From the IMG/VR virus record IMGVR_UViG_3300002242_000233, positions 1 through 29,397 of that record: 29,397 nt of DNA; one strand, 5' to 3'. The position numbers were made by a program, and so were the translations under genes. This DNA comes from a virus. The notes under the pieces were generated by a model. The model ran no database searches, was not told where the DNA came from, and worked only from the letters and a program-made list of their open reading frames with translations. Below are positions 4,259 through 29,397 of this stretch, piece after piece; position 1 is the first letter of the stretch; the number at the start of each line of letters is the position of its first letter.

Positions 4259-5782
4259 CTATTCCTCCATGAACTCATCCAAATTCTTTATATGCAGATA
4301 CGGCTTAATCCTCTTCATTGCTATCTCTATGTATTTAGGATTGGCCTCGATACCTACAAAGTTCCTTGCATTCTTTAGGGCAACCAACGCCGTTGTTCCC
4401 GAACCCATGAACGGGTCTAACACAACGCCAGGACGCCAGCCAGCATTACATCCACAATCAGTCCAGCCAACAGTCTCGTATCCAATACGCATTCTATATT
4501 TTGTAATATCCTGCTCATGTAGGGACTTATTTGGGTCTATGTCAGTCCCGCTTTTACCTGTCCCAGTGTTCTTTCCTGGCCTTGTGGGTTCATAATTCTT
4601 ATTTGTTATTCTCACTCTTGCCTCCCCACACTTCCTACATATCTGCTGAGGACATGCGGCCTTAATCATCGGCTCTACCAACTTCTCAGGGAACACTGCA
4701 AAATGGCTTTCTGGGAAGGGTTGTGTATTAATTGACCATAAATCACCCGATGTCAGTGTCTCTTTTTTCTCACCCAACCCCGTAAATACATCATATACTT
4801 TACTAACCAACTCAAACGGGATATTTGCTGCACTGAACACGATTCCGTCTTTGTCTTTCACTTCTATGCTGTATTTGTCTTCTTTAAATTCCCATACATC
4901 TCCCGGATTCTTACCTCTGTCATGAAAAGCATTCGGCTCTCCCGGCTCTGGTGCATTCCGCACACCTCCTGCCTTATAACTCTCGTCTTTAGTTTTCTTT
5001 CTGGTGGCTTGATATTGTTTCAAGTGCGAATCTTCAGATTTGTTATAACTGCTATTTGGGTATAGCCTCTGCCTTAAGACCCCATAGGGTCTTTTATCTG
5101 TAATACCAATAAACTCATGAGGCACCCGCACGCTGTCAAGGTCAAACCAATATTTTTTAGACTTTACCAGCATAAACACGGGCTCGTAAGCATTTGTAAA
5201 GCGGTCTTTCACGCTGGAGGGCATGTGGTTCGGCTTATGCCATATAACAATATTCCTTAAAATCCAGCCCTGCTCGTCTAACATGCGCAGAATAAGGCGG
5301 TAATTCTGCATTACTAAGCTTTTAGCCCTTAATTTACGCTGGGGGTTGGGTTTATCCTTATAAAGGTTGGGAATGGAAAGGCTCCGCTTATTATTGTTCC
5401 TTTTATCCCCCTTTCCGCAACCGCTCCCCCCATAACTGTCGCCCTGATTCCAGAACATCACGCCATCTTTTTTAAGGACCCGCTTAAGTTCCGCCGTTAT
5501 CTGTAATAAATGCTCTAAATACATTTCAAGCGTTGGCTCTAAGCCTAATTGGCCATACCAGGCCCCGCATTTAATACAGAATTTACCGCCTGATTCCCCT
5601 ATATCCCATTCATGGTCGCAATCGGGCGCCCCGCCCCAAATTGTATTAGAACCCTCTCCATAGTCCCGCAGTCCCCAATAGGGGGGTGAAGTTATTATAG
5701 TGTCAATAGATTCGGCTGGAAAGGTCTTAAGGACCTCTAAGGCATTTCCATGATATATTTTATTTACCTCTAAGCGCTCCAT
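4259..5782 (-). CDS. Beta-class DNA methyltransferase, TSPPYW type (probable N4-cytosine)
   Basis: 507 aa. Catalytic motif IV TSPPYW (31-36) lies before the SAM-binding motif DPFMGSGTT (456-464), the beta-class order; Ser in SPPY favours N4-cytosine over N6-adenine. HFAVFPEKL upstream of motif I is the usual motif X. Two Cys-rich patches, CDHEW plus FCIKCGAW near residues 54-74 and ICRKCGEA with DCGCNAG in the C-terminal third, look like zinc ribbons in the target recognition region. The gene starts after a GGTGGATTAA ribosome site ending the gene before. Its 3' third is nearly identical to the partial gene at the right edge, whereas its 5' part has the codon style of the structural genes, suggesting a mosaic. 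No restriction endonuclease lies beside it. Confidence 0.88.
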   Translation of the reverse strand: MERLEVNKIYHGNALEVLKTFPAESIDTIITSPPYWGLRDYGEGSNTIWGGAPDCDHEWDIGESGGKFCIKCGAWYGQLGLEPTLEMYLEHLLQITAELKRVLKKDGVMFWNQGDSYGGSGCGKGDKRNNNKRSLSIPNLYKDKPNPQRKLRAKSLVMQNYRLILRMLDEQGWILRNIVIWHKPNHMPSSVKDRFTNAYEPVFMLVKSKKYWFDLDSVRVPHEFIGITDKRPYGVLRQRLYPNSSYNKSEDSHLKQYQATRKKTKDESYKAGGVRNAPEPGEPNAFHDRGKNPGDVWEFKEDKYSIEVKDKDGIVFSAANIPFELVSKVYDVFTGLGEKKETLTSGDLWSINTQPFPESHFAVFPEKLVEPMIKAACPQQICRKCGEARVRITNKNYEPTRPGKNTGTGKSGTDIDPNKSLHEQDITKYRMRIGYETVGWTDCGCNAGWRPGVVLDPFMGSGTTALVALKNARNFVGIEANPKYIEIAMKRIKPYLHIKNLDEFMEE

Positions 5783-10707: not shown

Positions 10708-11523
10708 TTAAGCCCCCCATCTAATAGCCTGACTTATTTTATTTGCGAGCGTGTCCATATCCACGGGTGCCAAATAGCCATTTATGCTTATATTTATGTT
10801 CTGGTGCGCTCTGGTGCGCTCTGGCTCGCTGACTCTCCCTATTTGCTCCCCTTCATGGACCAGAACCACCCCCGTTTTTTCCACGGTGCGCACCTCGCCC
10901 GGCTCAGTCTGGGCGCTGGCTTTCAGAGAGGCCAAATATGTTAAGCCGCCACCTATGGCCGCCGTGAGAATTCCCGCAATGATTGGGGCTGCTGGTCCCC
11001 AACTCGCAACCTGTGCGCTGAATTCCGCCGCCGCCTGTGTCCATTTAGCCGCTGCAAGCCCAAGGGTTGCACCCGTTAAAACTGATAAAAGCGCCCGTTG
11101 CTCTTTACTCTTAGCGTTTATCGCCATGTATGCAAGCGCCACGCCGCCCGCTGCAACCGCAAGCCCTGTATAAGCCGCTATTTGCGCCTGTGTGGCGTTG
11201 GCCATCTGGCGGGCAATCACTAAATACATTTGCCCAGCGCCGGCGACCATGTCTATCGCCCCCTGAACCTTAGCCAACTTTTCCGCCGTGTCCTGACTGA
11301 CTAAGCCCGTGGCGCTTAATCCACCTCTAAATTTACTTATTGCCCCCCCGAATCTGTCCAGCGCTTCAATATTGGCAATAAAGGCCACATTCTCGGCCAT
11401 CTGGGCATTGGTTAAGGATTCCGTGCTTTCCTTAAGGTCCTCTGTGGCTCCGCTGGCCTGGTTGGCCTTATCGGTGTAGTCATCCTGTAGGGTCAGTTTA
11501 ACCTTAACTTCTTTATCTGCCAT
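10708..11523 (-). CDS. Short tail tape measure protein, 271 aa
   Basis: Identified by place, right after the frameshifting tail chaperone pair, and by composition: a charged, Ala/Gln-rich helical N-terminal half (DDYTDKANQASGATEDLKES), then hydrophobic helices (AAYTGLAVAAGGVALAYMAI; APIIAGILTAAIGGGLTYLA) typical of tape measure proteins. The last 70 residues (EVRTVEKTGVVLVHEGEQIG) resemble the C-terminal domain of many tape measures. At roughly 0.15 nm of tail per residue, 271 aa implies a tail of about 40 nm, short for a siphovirus. ATG follows the frameshifted stop with no gap. Confidence 0.7.
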   Translation of the reverse strand: MADKEVKVKLTLQDDYTDKANQASGATEDLKESTESLTNAQMAENVAFIANIEALDRFGGAISKFRGGLSATGLVSQDTAEKLAKVQGAIDMVAGAGQMYLVIARQMANATQAQIAAYTGLAVAAGGVALAYMAINAKSKEQRALLSVLTGATLGLAAAKWTQAAAEFSAQVASWGPAAPIIAGILTAAIGGGLTYLASLKASAQTEPGEVRTVEKTGVVLVHEGEQIGRVSEPERTRAHQNINISINGYLAPVDMDTLANKISQAIRWGA

Positions 11524-12101
11524 TTATGGCGCCTCCAATCTCTTTTTAATGCGCTTTATGTCCTGCATATAACTAAGGACCGTAAAGGCACCAATGCTTA
11601 ACCGCTCCATATCCCAGGGCATAAGCGCCGGGTATGCGGCCCAGAGTTCCACGGTGCGACTTAGGTCCCGCCAATATGGTTTTTTTTTAAATCCTCAATG
11701 TCTGGCGGTGCGAAATATGCGCTCGCCTGGTCTATGAATTCCTTAAGTTCATCTGACTTTAAGGCATTAAAGAGCGCCTGCACATCCTCAGGGCTTAAAT
11801 TTGGATTAACGGTTATGGCCGAAATCAGGGCCGAATAATAGGGCGCTGCAATCTCGTTAAAGCGGGCAACTTTAAAAGAATCCTCAGGCTCCGCCTTTCC
11901 TGCGGCTATGCGCTCATATATTAAGACTAACTCGGGTTCCATCTCCATTATTGCCCTGTGCGCCTCTTCAAATTCCGCAAGAATTTTAAGTCGCTCTATG
12001 GCCCCTAATTCCTTAACTTCTATATCCCCAGCCCCAGGGATTGAGATTTTGCCACGGCGCACCCGCCCCGCCAGGAAAGCCCCTAAATCAAATTCAGGCA
12101 T
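11524..12101 (-). CDS. Tail assembly chaperone, -1 frameshift extended form (gpGT-like), 192 aa
   Basis: A ribosome reading the chaperone gene meets GAT TTA AAA AAA AAC. Slipping back one base after codon 140 gives an open frame of 52 more codons, beginning KPYWRDLSRTVELWAA, continuing YPALMPWDMERLSIGAF and ending KRIKKRLEAP, with TAA immediately before the tape measure ATG. Both the UUUAAAA and AAAAAAC heptamers are in the correct phase. Without the shift the stretch 11524-11660 has no gene. The layout, short and extended proteins just before the tape measure, is the conserved lambda G/GT scheme; the extension would recruit the tape measure while the short form coats it. A sequencing error in the nine-A run is the alternative. 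Confidence 0.8.
11661..12101 (-). CDS. Tail assembly chaperone, unshifted form (gpG-like), 146 aa
   Basis: Small acidic helical protein starting MPEFDLGAFLAGRVRRGK, followed by VKELGAIERLKILAEFEEAH, and a C-terminal half with NPNLSPEDVQALFNALKSDE. This N-terminal pattern (short strand, then helices) is typical of siphovirus tail chaperones. The start lies 8 nt inside the tail tube gene, after AGGGGGTGGAGTTG. The zero frame ends six codons after the slippery run (NHIGGT). In this family the short form greatly outnumbers the frameshifted one. Confidence 0.75.
   Translation of the reverse strand: MPEFDLGAFLAGRVRRGKISIPGAGDIEVKELGAIERLKILAEFEEAHRAIMEMEPELVLIYERIAAGKAEPEDSFKVARFNEIAAPYYSALISAITVNPNLSPEDVQALFNALKSDELKEFIDQASAYFAPPDIEDLKKNHIGGT
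11679..11691 (-). promoter_or_regulatory. Slippery site for -1 ribosomal frameshifting
   Basis: Minus-strand TTTAAAAAAAAAC contains U UUA AAA (11685-11691) and A AAA AAC (11679-11685), two canonical X XXY YYZ heptamers in the reading phase. Either gives the same extended protein. No strong downstream hairpin is evident by eye. Confidence 0.75.
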
Positions 12102-13053
12102 TTAACAACTCCACCCCCTCAAATTCTAAGCGTGCGGGGTATTCTAAGGCCGACAACTCTTTAATATCAAGGTCAAACGGCTTTATAATCCCATTTGAGA
12201 GCCTGATTTTTTTAGAAGGCACGCCAGAGAGCCCGCCCGGCGGTGTAAAGATTAAATCCACATATTCCACAGGTTCCCCATTATAAGAGCGTTCCCACCA
12301 TGTCCAATTATTAGCCCCAAGATTGATTATAAGGGCCGCTGTGGCTTTTTGCTCTGAATATGCTGCGGGGAGCGTGTATATATTCCCATCAGCGCCGGTT
12401 AAACGGCCCATGTAAGCGCTTATATCCCTCGTAATCTGCAAGGCCCAGGACCTCAGAGGGGCGGGGGTTTCTTCCGCCCCGTCAATCTTAACGACCTCCC
12501 GCACATGCGCACCCAGCCAGGGCTTTATTTCTGGTTCTGGGTGCTGGACATAAAGCGGGCTGTTATTTGAGCCTACAAATCCCTTATACTCTGAGCTGGC
12601 GCCCGCCATCTGGTCCGTAATCTGAATATAGCGAGCAATCATGTCAATAGAGAGGCTAAGGGGCGTTGTATAGCCCTCCTTATTTAGCGTTATGCCCTTA
12701 TGCACCGCACCTATTGCCAGAGCCGCCTTATATCCGCCTGGGCTGGCTGCCCCTTTCCAAATCTCCCATGTCTGACTTTTAATATTGTCATCAAGGGCGG
12801 GGCTTATAAGGTTATAAAAATGCTCGCCCGCTGGTTGTATGGTTGCGCTTAGCGCTGGGTTATATCCCTCTTTACTCCACCCCTGCGGCCATTCAGAGCC
12901 CAGCCCTGTTAAATCTGTGATATTCAAGCCATGGGTTAATTTATATTCCTTCAATAGCCCGGGGTAATAATACTCGGTGCCGTTGGGCGGGGCGCCGACC
13001 GTGGGCTCATCTATAAATACCGCTCTGTGTTCCTTTCCGCCTAATATGCTCAT
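12094..13053 (-). CDS. Major tail tube protein, 319 aa
   Basis: Start set at MSILGGKEHRAVF (13053), preceded by GAGGAGGTTTAAA; the frame extends five codons upstream but lacks a ribosome site there. The protein is beta-rich with regularly spaced aromatic residues and sits between the tail terminator and the chaperone, the usual place of the tube gene in siphoviruses. An N-terminal segment with SEWPQGWSKEGYNPALSATI and a C-terminal half with VEYVDLIFTPPGGLSG suggest two related beta domains, so its length is above that of a single-domain tube protein. Function is inferred mainly from synteny. Confidence 0.65.
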   Translation of the reverse strand: MSILGGKEHRAVFIDEPTVGAPPNGTEYYYPGLLKEYKLTHGLNITDLTGLGSEWPQGWSKEGYNPALSATIQPAGEHFYNLISPALDDNIKSQTWEIWKGAASPGGYKAALAIGAVHKGITLNKEGYTTPLSLSIDMIARYIQITDQMAGASSEYKGFVGSNNSPLYVQHPEPEIKPWLGAHVREVVKIDGAEETPAPLRSWALQITRDISAYMGRLTGADGNIYTLPAAYSEQKATAALIINLGANNWTWWERSYNGEPVEYVDLIFTPPGGLSGVPSKKIRLSNGIIKPFDLDIKELSALEYPARLEFEGVELLNA

Positions 13054-13054
13054 T

Positions 13055-13459
13055 TTAAACCTCCTCATGAGTTCTTAACTGAATGTCAATTATAAACCTG
13101 TAAATGGTGCCCTCTGGGGCGGGCTCGTGCTGTGGCTTCACTGATTGGACCAAGAACCAAGCCGCCGCACCATTGGCCGGCTGAATCTCTCTTAGATTAA
13201 GGCTATTTACGACCGCCGTCGCCTGAGAGCGGGCGCTTTCTTCATCTGGCGCCCAAACATTGGCCCATAACTCAGATATTACGCCGATTCCCTGGCCTGT
13301 CAAGTCCTGATTATAATCGGGGTCTATGCTTATAAGATTGGTTGTTATCTCTAAGCCAGGGGGCACAACCCAGCCGGGCCAACCTGCATATATAGGCACT
13401 ACTGGGAATTGCGCTTTAAGCGTGTCTATTAATATCTGCTCTGGGTCCAGGTCTCGCAT
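13055..13459 (-). CDS. Tail terminator / minor tail protein, 134 aa
   Basis: Start at MRDLDPEQILIDTLKAQF (13459), overlapping the upstream stop as TAATG after AGGGTGG; a GTG three codons earlier is less likely. Pattern: N-terminal helix, then strands and EESARSQATAVVNSLNL, a helix typical of the gpU/gp17 tail terminator fold, and a final strand RFIIDIQLRTHEEV. Place between the head-tail adaptors and tail tube agrees. It would cap the growing tail and mate it to the head. Confidence 0.6.
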   Translation of the reverse strand: MRDLDPEQILIDTLKAQFPVVPIYAGWPGWVVPPGLEITTNLISIDPDYNQDLTGQGIGVISELWANVWAPDEESARSQATAVVNSLNLREIQPANGAAAWFLVQSVKPQHEPAPEGTIYRFIIDIQLRTHEEV

Positions 13460-17511: not shown

Positions 17512-18185
17512 TGCACTACCTCCACGCACTTTTTATTAAACTGCGCAATCGTGGTTATATATGCCCTGTCCCCGCCAATGTTTTTTATCCAAACATGCGG
17601 GCGCTTTATATACCCTGGCACATCGTAAAGCGGCGCTTCAAACGCCTTAAACTCAACGCCAGGGTATCCGCTGATTGAATAAGAGGGGTTAAAACCTCCC
17701 GTGTAATCCACATTACATAAAATAAGCCCCTGGTCTAATGCACGGGGGATATTATCATGGTCTATAAACTGCAATTCAGAGCGGAGTTTATAAAAAGTGT
17801 TATCTAAGACTTCGGCCAATAACACTTTAACCCTTATATCTGTAATCTTTCCATTAAGAACGACCCCCGGGTCAGAGCTGGGGAATATTATATATAACTC
17901 ATCCCCGGGGTCTAACTGTGAGCCCTCAATCCGCACATATCCCAAATAATCCGCCGTGCAGCCACCGCCGCCTTCTATTGATTCCACCGCCGCCTTAATA
18001 TCCGCAATATCAGGGGTGCTTAAATCTGAATCGGCTTTAATGGCCTCAACGGCCGCCTTAATGTCCGCAATGTCCCCAGAGTTCCCACCCTGTCCAGCCT
18101 CTATATTTGCCACAATAGCCTTTATCCTGTTAAGGGCCTCCTGGGTTGTTAAAACCCTATCCGTTGCCGTTCCTTCATCAACCAT
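17508..18185 (-). CDS. Head fibre / capsid decoration-like protein, 225 aa
   Basis: Residues 35-75 contain a duplicated helix, DIADIKAAVEAIKAD and DIADIKAAVESIEGG, of the same style as the repeats in the 785-aa fibre. A Gly-rich hinge and a 150-residue beta-rich domain follow (LGYVRIEGSQLDPGDELYII; DIRVKVLLAEVL; RPHVWIKNIGG). A trimeric helical stalk plus beta head is inferred. It lies two genes after the major capsid gene, where head decoration or fibre proteins are usually found. Start has AGAGGCGATTAA. A TATA-like TTTTAAA about 35 bases upstream could give an internal promoter, at low confidence. Confidence 0.55.
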   Translation of the reverse strand: MVDEGTATDRVLTTQEALNRIKAIVANIEAGQGGNSGDIADIKAAVEAIKADSDLSTPDIADIKAAVESIEGGGGCTADYLGYVRIEGSQLDPGDELYIIFPSSDPGVVLNGKITDIRVKVLLAEVLDNTFYKLRSELQFIDHDNIPRALDQGLILCNVDYTGGFNPSYSISGYPGVEFKAFEAPLYDVPGYIKRPHVWIKNIGGDRAYITTIAQFNKKCVEVVQ

Positions 18186-22935: not shown

Positions 22936-24378
22936 TTAAATGCTGAATTTATCCCCACGGGCACCTAAGGTCGGCGGCGCTCTATGGGTCTTTATTATGG
23001 TTGCTGTGGGCTCTGGCGCACGGTTCAAATATCCCCAGAGGGCAAGGGCGGCGCTGTCGGGGTAGTCATCATTACCGCCCGGCCTGTGGTGTATGCTCAT
23101 ATATTGCCCCTTTACCTCACGCTGTAAGGTTATATTCTGGGATATAAAGCGCTTTAAGGACTGCTGGAGGCTCAAGGCCCGAGGGGTTATTGCAATATCT
23201 GGGGCGCTCTGGGGCAATAATAGCCGCCGGTCCTCTATTGCCCGGAGATATTCCTTATAAAGGGCGTCTTTCCCCGGCATTGAGAATATAAAAGGCTTAA
23301 AGGGTATATCTGGCCGTGCGCTTTTAAACCATTCAATCACGGGGTCGCCGGCGCCCGTGGTGTCCGCCGTTATGCTCTGAATGAATGGAAAGCGGCCAAA
23401 AAGGCTTAAGAGTTCCTGTAATTGCGCCTCATAACCTATTTGCCTCAATTCAACCCATGAGGCAATAAATGGTCGGCCCTCTGAGTCTTCTATAACAACC
23501 GTGGCGACCGTTGAATCGTCATATTTAGCCAAGTCCAAGCCAACCCATGCGGGGGCCTCTGAATATGTCAGAGCCTCAGGCGGTCCCCGTTCCTGCATGG
23601 CCGCAATATCCCGGGGCGTGATTGGTTGGCCAATATCAAATAACCACTCTAAGCCATATTGCCGTCGGTATGCGGGGGAATCTGGCCCCAATTCCGCCCG
23701 TTGTCTTTCCAGATATAAGCCATATTGCGGGTTATGTTTAACCACATCGTCGGTATTTGTGATATAGTGCTTTAATGTTGAGTCCCCCAAGGCCGTATAA
23801 AAAAAGTTAGGGGTATAACCCGGCGTGCCCATATAGACTTTAAGAGCGTTATAGTGCGCACCCATAGGGTCAATACGGTCGCTTTTAACCTGGTCCTCTA
23901 TGTCCTGGGCCTCATCAATTATTATAAGATTGAAAGACTCGCCTACAATATGGGCGGTCTTATTCCCAGGGAGCGCTTTTAAGAGCGTGCCCCCCGGATA
24001 TTCAAGCCAGCGCTCCAAATCCTTAATGGGGATTATTCCCCGCTGTCTAAGTTCTGGCGCCATGAGCGCCAATTTACCTTTAACTTTCCGTGCCAATAAG
24101 AGCGCTTGGCCCTCTGAGGGGGCAACCACGCCCGCTTTAAGCGGCCAAGGTGTGCCGCCCGCTGCACTCAATACTATAAGATAAAAAAGCGCCATGGCCA
24201 CCGCCTCGGACTTTCCAGATTGGCGGGGATAAAGGGCGGTTATGGTGCGCCCTCGGCGCTCTAAAAAAGAGCCCACAATATCAACCATTAAATCCAGCTG
24301 GTAAGCATAAGGACCAGCCCAATTATTGCCGTGGCTCCGGTCCCATTGCTTTAAGAATTGCCTGATATTAAGCCTCAA
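22936..24378 (-). CDS. terL: Terminase large subunit, 480 aa, TTG start
   Basis: DNA packaging motor. The ATPase has Walker A YPRQSGKS (50-57) and Walker B LIIIDEAQ (151-158); MGTP (183-186) fits the coupling motif. The RNase H-like nuclease has its acidic residues in GLDLAKYDD (280-288), TADTTGAGDP (337-346) and NDDYPDSAALALW near residue 440. Start is TTG at 24378, overlapping the stop of the small terminase candidate as TTGA; no ATG is nearer in frame. No intein or split is seen. Packaging type (cos or pac) cannot be inferred. Confidence 0.92.
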   Translation of the reverse strand: MRLNIRQFLKQWDRSHGNNWAGPYAYQLDLMVDIVGSFLERRGRTITALYPRQSGKSEAVAMALFYLIVLSAAGGTPWPLKAGVVAPSEGQALLLARKVKGKLALMAPELRQRGIIPIKDLERWLEYPGGTLLKALPGNKTAHIVGESFNLIIIDEAQDIEDQVKSDRIDPMGAHYNALKVYMGTPGYTPNFFYTALGDSTLKHYITNTDDVVKHNPQYGLYLERQRAELGPDSPAYRRQYGLEWLFDIGQPITPRDIAAMQERGPPEALTYSEAPAWVGLDLAKYDDSTVATVVIEDSEGRPFIASWVELRQIGYEAQLQELLSLFGRFPFIQSITADTTGAGDPVIEWFKSARPDIPFKPFIFSMPGKDALYKEYLRAIEDRRLLLPQSAPDIAITPRALSLQQSLKRFISQNITLQREVKGQYMSIHHRPGGNDDYPDSAALALWGYLNRAPEPTATIIKTHRAPPTLGARGDKFSI

Positions 24379-24935
24379 GCGTTCTTTATCCGTTTTTTAA
24401 CCCCCTTTTTTTTGCTCTTTTTTGAGCGCTTAGAGCCCGAGGGCTTAGGGGGCTCTGGGGCGGGCATGTCCTCAATACCGAAAAAGGCTTTAACAGATTC
24501 CCAGGACCCGCCGCCCATGCCGCCGGGCGTTATGTTTATATTGCTGACTCCCAGAGCGCTAAAAGCCTTTTCGGCCAGCCTGTCCCTCATGTTCCGATAT
24601 CTTATGGCCAGGTCATCACGCCCCTCCCTCTCAAACCGCTTTATCAAATGCTCATATTCCTTTATTGTGTCCGTATAATAGCCAAGCGCCCAACTTATAG
24701 CCTCCTGCACCTCTGGGAGCTCAGAGCCATAAGCCCTTATGCCCTCTCTTAGCGCCCTCATATCTGAGCGCACGGCCACAACCCCCCAGCCTTCCCACCA
24801 TGGGAGCCGCTGTAATTCTTCTAAGGCCTCAGGTGCGCTATAGCCCCGCAATAAATAGCGCAATACGGCAAGCCTGCGCCTGCGGACCTTTATCGTATGG
24901 CCCAGCACCTTATCGCTTAAGTCCATTATTACCAT
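24375..24935 (-). CDS. Probable terminase small subunit, 186 aa
   Basis: Start chosen at the ATG at 24935 (MVIMDLSDK), which has GGTGATT ahead; an ATG six codons earlier lacks a ribosome site. The N-terminal region RRRRLAVLRYLLRGYSAPEA reads as a helix-turn-helix. A central helical stretch (YYTDTIKEYEHLIKRFEREG) may oligomerise, and the C-terminal 30 residues are very basic (SGSKRSKKSKKKGVKKRIK). This order and its direct coupling to the large terminase by TTGA fit a small terminase that binds the packaging site, but no diagnostic motif exists, so this is contextual. Confidence 0.65.
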   Translation of the reverse strand: MVIMDLSDKVLGHTIKVRRRRLAVLRYLLRGYSAPEALEELQRLPWWEGWGVVAVRSDMRALREGIRAYGSELPEVQEAISWALGYYTDTIKEYEHLIKRFEREGRDDLAIRYRNMRDRLAEKAFSALGVSNINITPGGMGGGSWESVKAFFGIEDMPAPEPPKPSGSKRSKKSKKKGVKKRIKNA

Positions 24936-25010: not shown

Positions 25011-25020
25011 GCAAGTGCAA

Positions 25021-25100
25021 GCCTGGGCGGGGATTTGAACCCCGGACCCGCTGCCGGACCAGCTCTTAAGGTTGGCGCTTTACCGCTCAGCCACCCAGGC
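25021..25100 (-). tRNA. tRNA-Leu (anticodon UAA)
   Basis: 80 nt. Acceptor stem GCCTGGG/CCCAGGC has 7 perfect pairs. D-stem GCT/AGC has a 9-nt loop with GG. Anticodon stem CCAAC/GCTGG has one A-C mismatch and loop CTTAAGA with anticodon TAA. A 14-nt variable arm contains CCG/CGG, the T-stem is CGGGG/CCCCG and the T-loop TTCAAAT. The long variable arm and UAA anticodon fit leucine. Odd points: the discriminator is U73, where LeuRS normally needs A73; no CCA is encoded; and the first 21 nt serve as the last codons of the upstream methyltransferase. It could supply UUA decoding, since TTA codons are common in these genes. Confidence 0.85.
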
Positions 25101-28841: not shown

Positions 28842-29397
28842 TTAATCCACCTCCTCTTTAAAGTCATCTAAGCGTTTTAAATGCAAATAGGGCTTTAACC
28901 TCTTCATTGCTATCTCTATGTATTTAGGATTGGCCTCAATACCTACGAAGTTCCTTGCATTCTTTAGGGCAACTAACGCCGTTGTTCCCGAACCCATGAA
29001 CGGGTCTAACACAACGCCAGCCCGCCAGCCAGCATTGCACCCGCAATCAGTCCAGCCAGCAGTCTCATATACAATACGCATTCTATATTTTGTAATATCC
29101 CGCTCATGTAGGGACTTATTTGGGTCTATGTCAGTCCCGCTTTTACCTGTCCCAGTGTTTCCTGGCCTTGTGGGTTCATAATTCTTATTTGTTATTCTCA
29201 CTCTTGCCTTCCCGCACTTCTTACATATCTGTTGAGGACATCCTGCTTTAATCATCGGCTCTACCAACTTCTCAGGGAAAACTGCAAAATGGCTTTCAGG
29301 GAAGGGTTGTGTATTAATTGACCATAAATCACCCGATGTCAGTGTCTCTTTTTTCTCACCCAACCCCGTAAATACATCATATACTTTACTAACCAAC
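28842..29397 (-). CDS. Second TSPPYW-family DNA methyltransferase, truncated by the window edge
   Basis: Only the C-terminal 184-185 residues are present; the 5' end lies outside. It aligns along its whole visible length with the C-terminus of the gene at 4259-5782 at over 90 percent identity by eye, including VFPEKLVEPMIK, the zinc-ribbon cysteines (ICKKCGKA, DCGCNAG) and DPFMGSGTT. The last residues differ (RLDDFKEEVD against NLDEFMEE), because here the end of the gene carries the GGAGGTGGATTAA site for the OB-fold gene. Whether the missing N-terminal half also matches cannot be seen. Confidence 0.85.
   Translation of the reverse strand, partial: LVSKVYDVFTGLGEKKETLTSGDLWSINTQPFPESHFAVFPEKLVEPMIKAGCPQQICKKCGKARVRITNKNYEPTRPGNTGTGKSGTDIDPNKSLHERDITKYRMRIVYETAGWTDCGCNAGWRAGVVLDPFMGSGTTALVALKNARNFVGIEANPKYIEIAMKRLKPYLHLKRLDDFKEEVD
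28863..29397. repeat. Direct repeat of 4274-4811 (methyltransferase 3' region)
   Basis: These 535 bases match 4274-4811 in the same orientation with scattered substitutions and one 3-nt deletion (at the PGKNTG/PGNTG difference). Identity rises toward the window edge: the last 120 bases differ at only about two positions, so the repeat probably extends beyond. Confidence 0.9.

Follow-up and report, generated by a model that had tools for sequence, protein, structure and literature searches.

A probable lambda G/GT-type tail assembly chaperone gene with a -1 frameshift at a nine-adenine run in a virus that is likely archaeal

The window analyzed here is the whole of a 29,397-base stretch of viral DNA, IMG/VR virus record IMGVR_UViG_3300002242_000233. 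Its head module is recognizable from profile matches to the large terminase subunit (TerL), a portal fused to a Mu-F domain, a prohead protease, an HK97-type capsid protein, and a head-tail adaptor. The tail tube, chaperone, and tape measure genes of the window have no phage family match in Pfam or PHROGs. Two overlapping frames sit between the putative tube and tape measure genes, both of which are named by position only (with composition for the latter). The distance from the chaperone stop to the next start is 137 nt, the largest in the head and tail module; the other junctions range from -97 to +58 nt. The features of the locus, all on the minus strand, are as follows:

12094..13068, minus strand, putative tail tube protein of 324 aa (assigned by position only)
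11661..12101, minus strand, zero-frame tail assembly chaperone, a G-like product of 146 aa (assigned by position, flanked by the putative genes for tail tube and tape measure)
11661..11694, minus strand, 34-nt overlap that confines the shift, from the -1 frame TGA to the zero-frame TAA
11685..11691, minus strand, in-phase heptamer T_TTA_AAA, overlapping A_AAA_AAA (sequence scan)
11682..11688, minus strand, in-phase heptamer A_AAA_AAA (sequence scan)
11679..11685, minus strand, in-phase heptamer A_AAA_AAC, also present in the haloarchaeal virus HCTV-2 and in Blf4 (sequence scan)
11680..11688, minus strand, A9 slippery run, the sole nine-A run of the window (read directly)
11524..11679, minus strand, T-like -1 frame extension of 51 codons plus TAA (coding-phase score; GC by codon position)
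10708..11523, minus strand, putative tape measure protein of 271 aa, whose ATG at 11523 abuts the -1 frame TAA (assigned by position and composition only)

The 3' end of the chaperone gene, read along the minus strand, is GAC ATT GAG GAT TTA AAA AAA AAC CAT ATT GGC GGG ACC TAA. The first-pass annotation of this DNA described a nine-A run followed six codons later by the stop of the 146-aa chaperone, and this description is accurate: the run occupies 11688..11680, and the TAA is the sixth codon past AAC. The same annotation counted two in-phase canonical heptamers. The sites are indeed canonical and in phase, but there are three of them, namely A_AAA_AAA (11688), A_AAA_AAC (11685), and T_TTA_AAA (beginning at 11691), the last of which was missed. 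Because the -1 frame is closed just upstream of the slippery site by a TGA at 11697..11695, any shift must occur within the 34-nt overlap. At this genome's frequencies, the probability of a canonical heptamer arising by chance in a stretch of that length is 0.046, and that of an A6N heptamer is 0.0097. Neither of the accessory signals sought around the site stands out: downstream RNA structure does not exceed that of shuffled sequences (z of -0.3 and -0.2), and the upstream Shine-Dalgarno-like match is at background level, with 35% of windows matching equally well.

Beyond the overlap, the -1 frame translates as PYWRDLSRTVELWAAYPALMPWDMERLSIGAFTVLSYMQDIKRIKKRLEAP before its stop. The frame had been described as open for exactly 52 codons up to the tape measure start; it is flush with the next ATG, but comprises 51 sense codons plus the stop. 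Whichever heptamer slips, the product of a shift is 192 aa (141 + 51), and only the junction varies: slippage on T_TTA_AAA or A_AAA_AAA gives LKKK-PYW, whereas slippage on A_AAA_AAC gives LKKN-PYW. A codon-phase model trained on the remaining minus-strand genes gives the 51-codon tail a score of +9.8 in its own frame, a value reached by none of 288 out-of-frame windows (mean about -32) and by 78% of true-frame windows (mean 13.7, sd 5.2). In the other two frames the same stretch scores -14 and -26 and contains stops. Random sequence of matching dinucleotide composition stays open over 51 codons with a probability of 0.055. The score above every out-of-frame window speaks for coding constraint in the -1 frame, which the first-pass annotation took to encode a sensible helical protein, and the tail is very probably coding.

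The best explanation of the locus is probably a tail assembly chaperone gene of the lambda G/GT type, with a -1 frameshift at the A9 run. What the sequence shows directly is the layout of the frames, a slippery site in phase, and a -1 frame of coding character, and the likeness to lambda G/GT noted earlier is well supported by both anatomy and codon statistics. We infer slippage itself, its rate, and the chaperone role as follows. Most ribosomes would produce the 146-aa G-like protein, and a small fraction would shift backward by one base at the A9 run. The best reading of the mechanism is tandem slippage on the A-run, in which the P-site and A-site tRNAs would re-pair with AAA AAA, most likely on A_AAA_AAA or A_AAA_AAC. 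Ribosomes that had slipped would continue through the 51 further codons, and their product would be a GT-like protein of 192 aa. If the roles are as in lambda, its G part would coat the tape measure protein, and recruitment of tail tube subunits would fall to its T part.

The frame change could also arise during transcription. RNA polymerase slipping on the A9 template would add one A to some mRNAs, and conventional reading of these would give the 192-aa product. Runs of nine As or nine Ts slip efficiently with bacterial RNA polymerase, as in Thermus dnaX (PMC5009743, PMC1088944), and an A9 run exceeds what a heptamer needs, six or seven As being sufficient in HCTV-2 and in the Methanoculleus virus Blf4. 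However, this evidence comes from bacterial polymerases, whereas the host of the window virus is probably archaeal; the A9 run also forms a slippery site that is in phase and has an overlap to match, and the runs of the archaeal counterparts look too short for a transcriptional route. The A6 or A7 runs in HCTV-2 and Blf4 point to ribosomal slippage there. Polymerase slippage is accordingly an unlikely source of the longer product here, and the narrower proposal that polymerase slippage at the A9 run accounts, in full or in part, for the G:GT ratio in an archaeal host is doubtful, slightly more so. If true, this route would be unusual for a tail chaperone and, to our knowledge, undescribed for archaeal transcription.

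Two further readings dispense with slippage altogether. An assembly or sequencing error would mean that the real run is A10 and that one continuous gene of 192 codons encodes the chaperone. Homopolymers are prone to error, a single inserted A joins both frames, and the coding signal of the tail is as compatible with an error as with a programmed shift; taken alone, that signal cannot tell programmed shifting from a miscounted homopolymer. Against an error stand the usual layout at this place in tail gene clusters, which yields separate G and GT products, the need for a frame change in five out of six archaeal tailed viruses compared (perhaps also in the sixth, HHTV-2), and the intact frames in which the window's other A8 runs (18380 and 24406) lie. 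Miscounting of the run is therefore very improbable. Least likely, and barely credible, is that the 51-codon tail is a separate small protein with its own start, produced for instance by reinitiation at an internal ATG. The -1 frame does contain ATG codons (M20 and M24), but the whole tail scores as coding, including the part upstream of them, and no ATG, GTG, or TTG occurs in the -1 frame from the TGA up to the point where the tail begins. Ribosomal -1 frameshifting in a G/GT-type gene remains the preferred reading.

Searches of IMG/VR returned no protein relatives of the chaperone, the tail extension, the distal tail protein, or the tail tube, and no relative of the 192-aa product was found among phage records. 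Portal and TerL searches yielded remote relatives only (23-33% identity), and homologs of the window's tail genes were not found in the loci of these relatives. A single-sequence AF2 model of the chaperone, of low confidence (pLDDT 57), places an N-terminal beta hairpin before helices and has no fold match at E up to 0.001; the model of the tail tube is unusable (pLDDT 32).

The first-pass annotation took the sequence for that of a probable archaeal virus. The claim is plausible from several features: the best match of the portal among phage records is Methanobacteriales virus vir080, the N4/N6 methylase is near those of phiH and Blf4, TATA-like boxes lie close before some starts (e.g., that of TerS), and a tRNA-Leu without an encoded CCA has the anticodon loop CUUAAGA, which we take to be archaeal in appearance. 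Against it, the terminase is nearest to those of Streptomyces and Thermus phages, and no host genome was matched by TerL alignment or by the tRNA-Leu pattern. In our judgement, which is not a computed result, an archaeal host is likely.

Several other features of the window merit description. The tRNA-Leu (anticodon UAA) lies at 25020-25100 on the minus strand, where about 20 nt of it overlap the 3' end of a methylase gene. Its discriminator position reads U; in leucine tRNAs this position is usually A. Positions 4287-4811 and 28876-29397 are 94% identical, the latter being part of a second copy of an N4/N6 DNA methylase gene, cut off by the end of the window. Overlapping degenerate repeats, 83-95% identical, occupy positions 1-547 directly upstream of a 959-aa ORF. 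This ORF looks like a fibre or structural protein, and the repeats may be incomplete copies of a gene for a variable tip protein.

The comparison for a frame change covered six archaeal tailed viruses: HCTV-2, Blf4, and psiM2 (-1), PhiF3 and vir080 (+1), and HHTV-2 (perhaps). In Blf4 (MZ171369, 13336-13620), a coding -1 extension of the chaperone, T-like, precedes the tape measure gene, and A_AAA_AAC is in phase in all nine loci of its group (Blf4 and eight IMG/VR relatives). Variable columns in the -1 tail of this group fall mostly at third codon positions (26, versus 11 first and 7 second; eight aligned members, 40 codons); the stretch upstream of the slip site, disrupted by indels in this group, was left out of the comparison. 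Several Blf4 relatives carry AGGAGG about 7 nt upstream of the heptamer, a motif that resembles the Shine-Dalgarno stimulator of dnaX but occurs here in archaeal viruses. The run in the Blf4 group consists of six or seven As, compared to nine in the window, and the tail of the window has no detectable similarity to the T domain of Blf4. In psiM2 (NC_001902, 13712-13948), ORF19 carries A_AAA_AAG in phase, and past its stop a -1 extension of some 55 codons is coding. The extension of psiM100 is 48% identical to that of psiM2, and there is no canonical heptamer near the psiM100 stop. Neither Blf4 nor psiM2 is annotated with its -1 tail as a fusion, and the Blf4 paper makes no mention of frameshifting. 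PhiF3 (17857-18036) and vir080 (24217-24441) likely have their chaperone extension in the +1 frame; methanogen viruses thus seem to use both shift directions. Blf4, psiM2, PhiF3, and vir080 are analogies, and none is related in sequence to the chaperone of the window.

Together with the window, the Blf4 and psiM2 cases suggest that -1 recoding extends past haloviruses to the viruses of methanogens. Because Blf4 infects a cultured methanogen, archaeal -1 frameshifting is directly testable in that virus. With the window itself, a deeply divergent lineage joins the viruses that apparently use -1 recoding in the tail chaperone. In practice, gene callers overlook the GT product.

The first-pass annotation pointed out that a recoding signal of bacterial phage type appears to work in what looks like an archaeal virus; earlier work shows that such a case is not new. 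Frameshifting of the -1 G/GT type has been reported in archaeal tailed viruses since 2013, including HVTV-1 and HCTV-1, -2, and -5 (PMC5009743, PMC8211752). Hardycor1 uses a -1 frameshift at the heptamer G_GGA_AAT (PMC7911831), whereas the HF1 group apparently shifts +1 instead (PMC7230728). As HCTV-2 shares even the A_AAA_AAC heptamer, the -1 G/GT signal in an archaeal virus is already known, and the window is a further, sound example.

In lambda, as probably in the window, a zero-frame chaperone undergoes a -1 shift near its end (at low frequency in lambda), and the resulting extension ends before the tape measure gene (PMC5009743). The lambda ratio of gpG to gpGT is about 30:1, and G/GT shifting is widespread in long-tailed phages (PMC5009743). 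No sequence relation between lambda and the window was found here. The slippery heptamer of lambda, G_GGA_AAG, also differs from those of the window. The dnaX gene of Thermus thermophilus resembles the locus in having an A9 run inside a gene with two products, but there the products arise by transcriptional slippage (PMC5009743, PMC1088944), unlike in the best reading of the window.

Genes 40/41 of Haloarcula californiae tailed virus 2 (HCTV-2, Saparoviridae) have the same order as the window: tail tube, chaperone, -1 extension, and tape measure. The presence of A_AAA_AAC in HCTV-2 was confirmed, and its GenBank CDS joins both frames. Its run is A6 rather than A9 and starts ten bases ahead of where the stop codon ends, its extension is about 160 codons compared to 51, and the comparison established no similarity in sequence to the window. 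HHTV-2 shares the portal/Mu-F fusion with the window, and the tail tubes of both HHTV-2 and HCTV-2 occupy the same place, at about the same length, as the window's putative tube. In HCTV-2, whose tape measure is short like that of the window, the tube, chaperone, and tape measure are 326, 158, and 435 aa long, compared to 324, 146, and 271 aa in the window.
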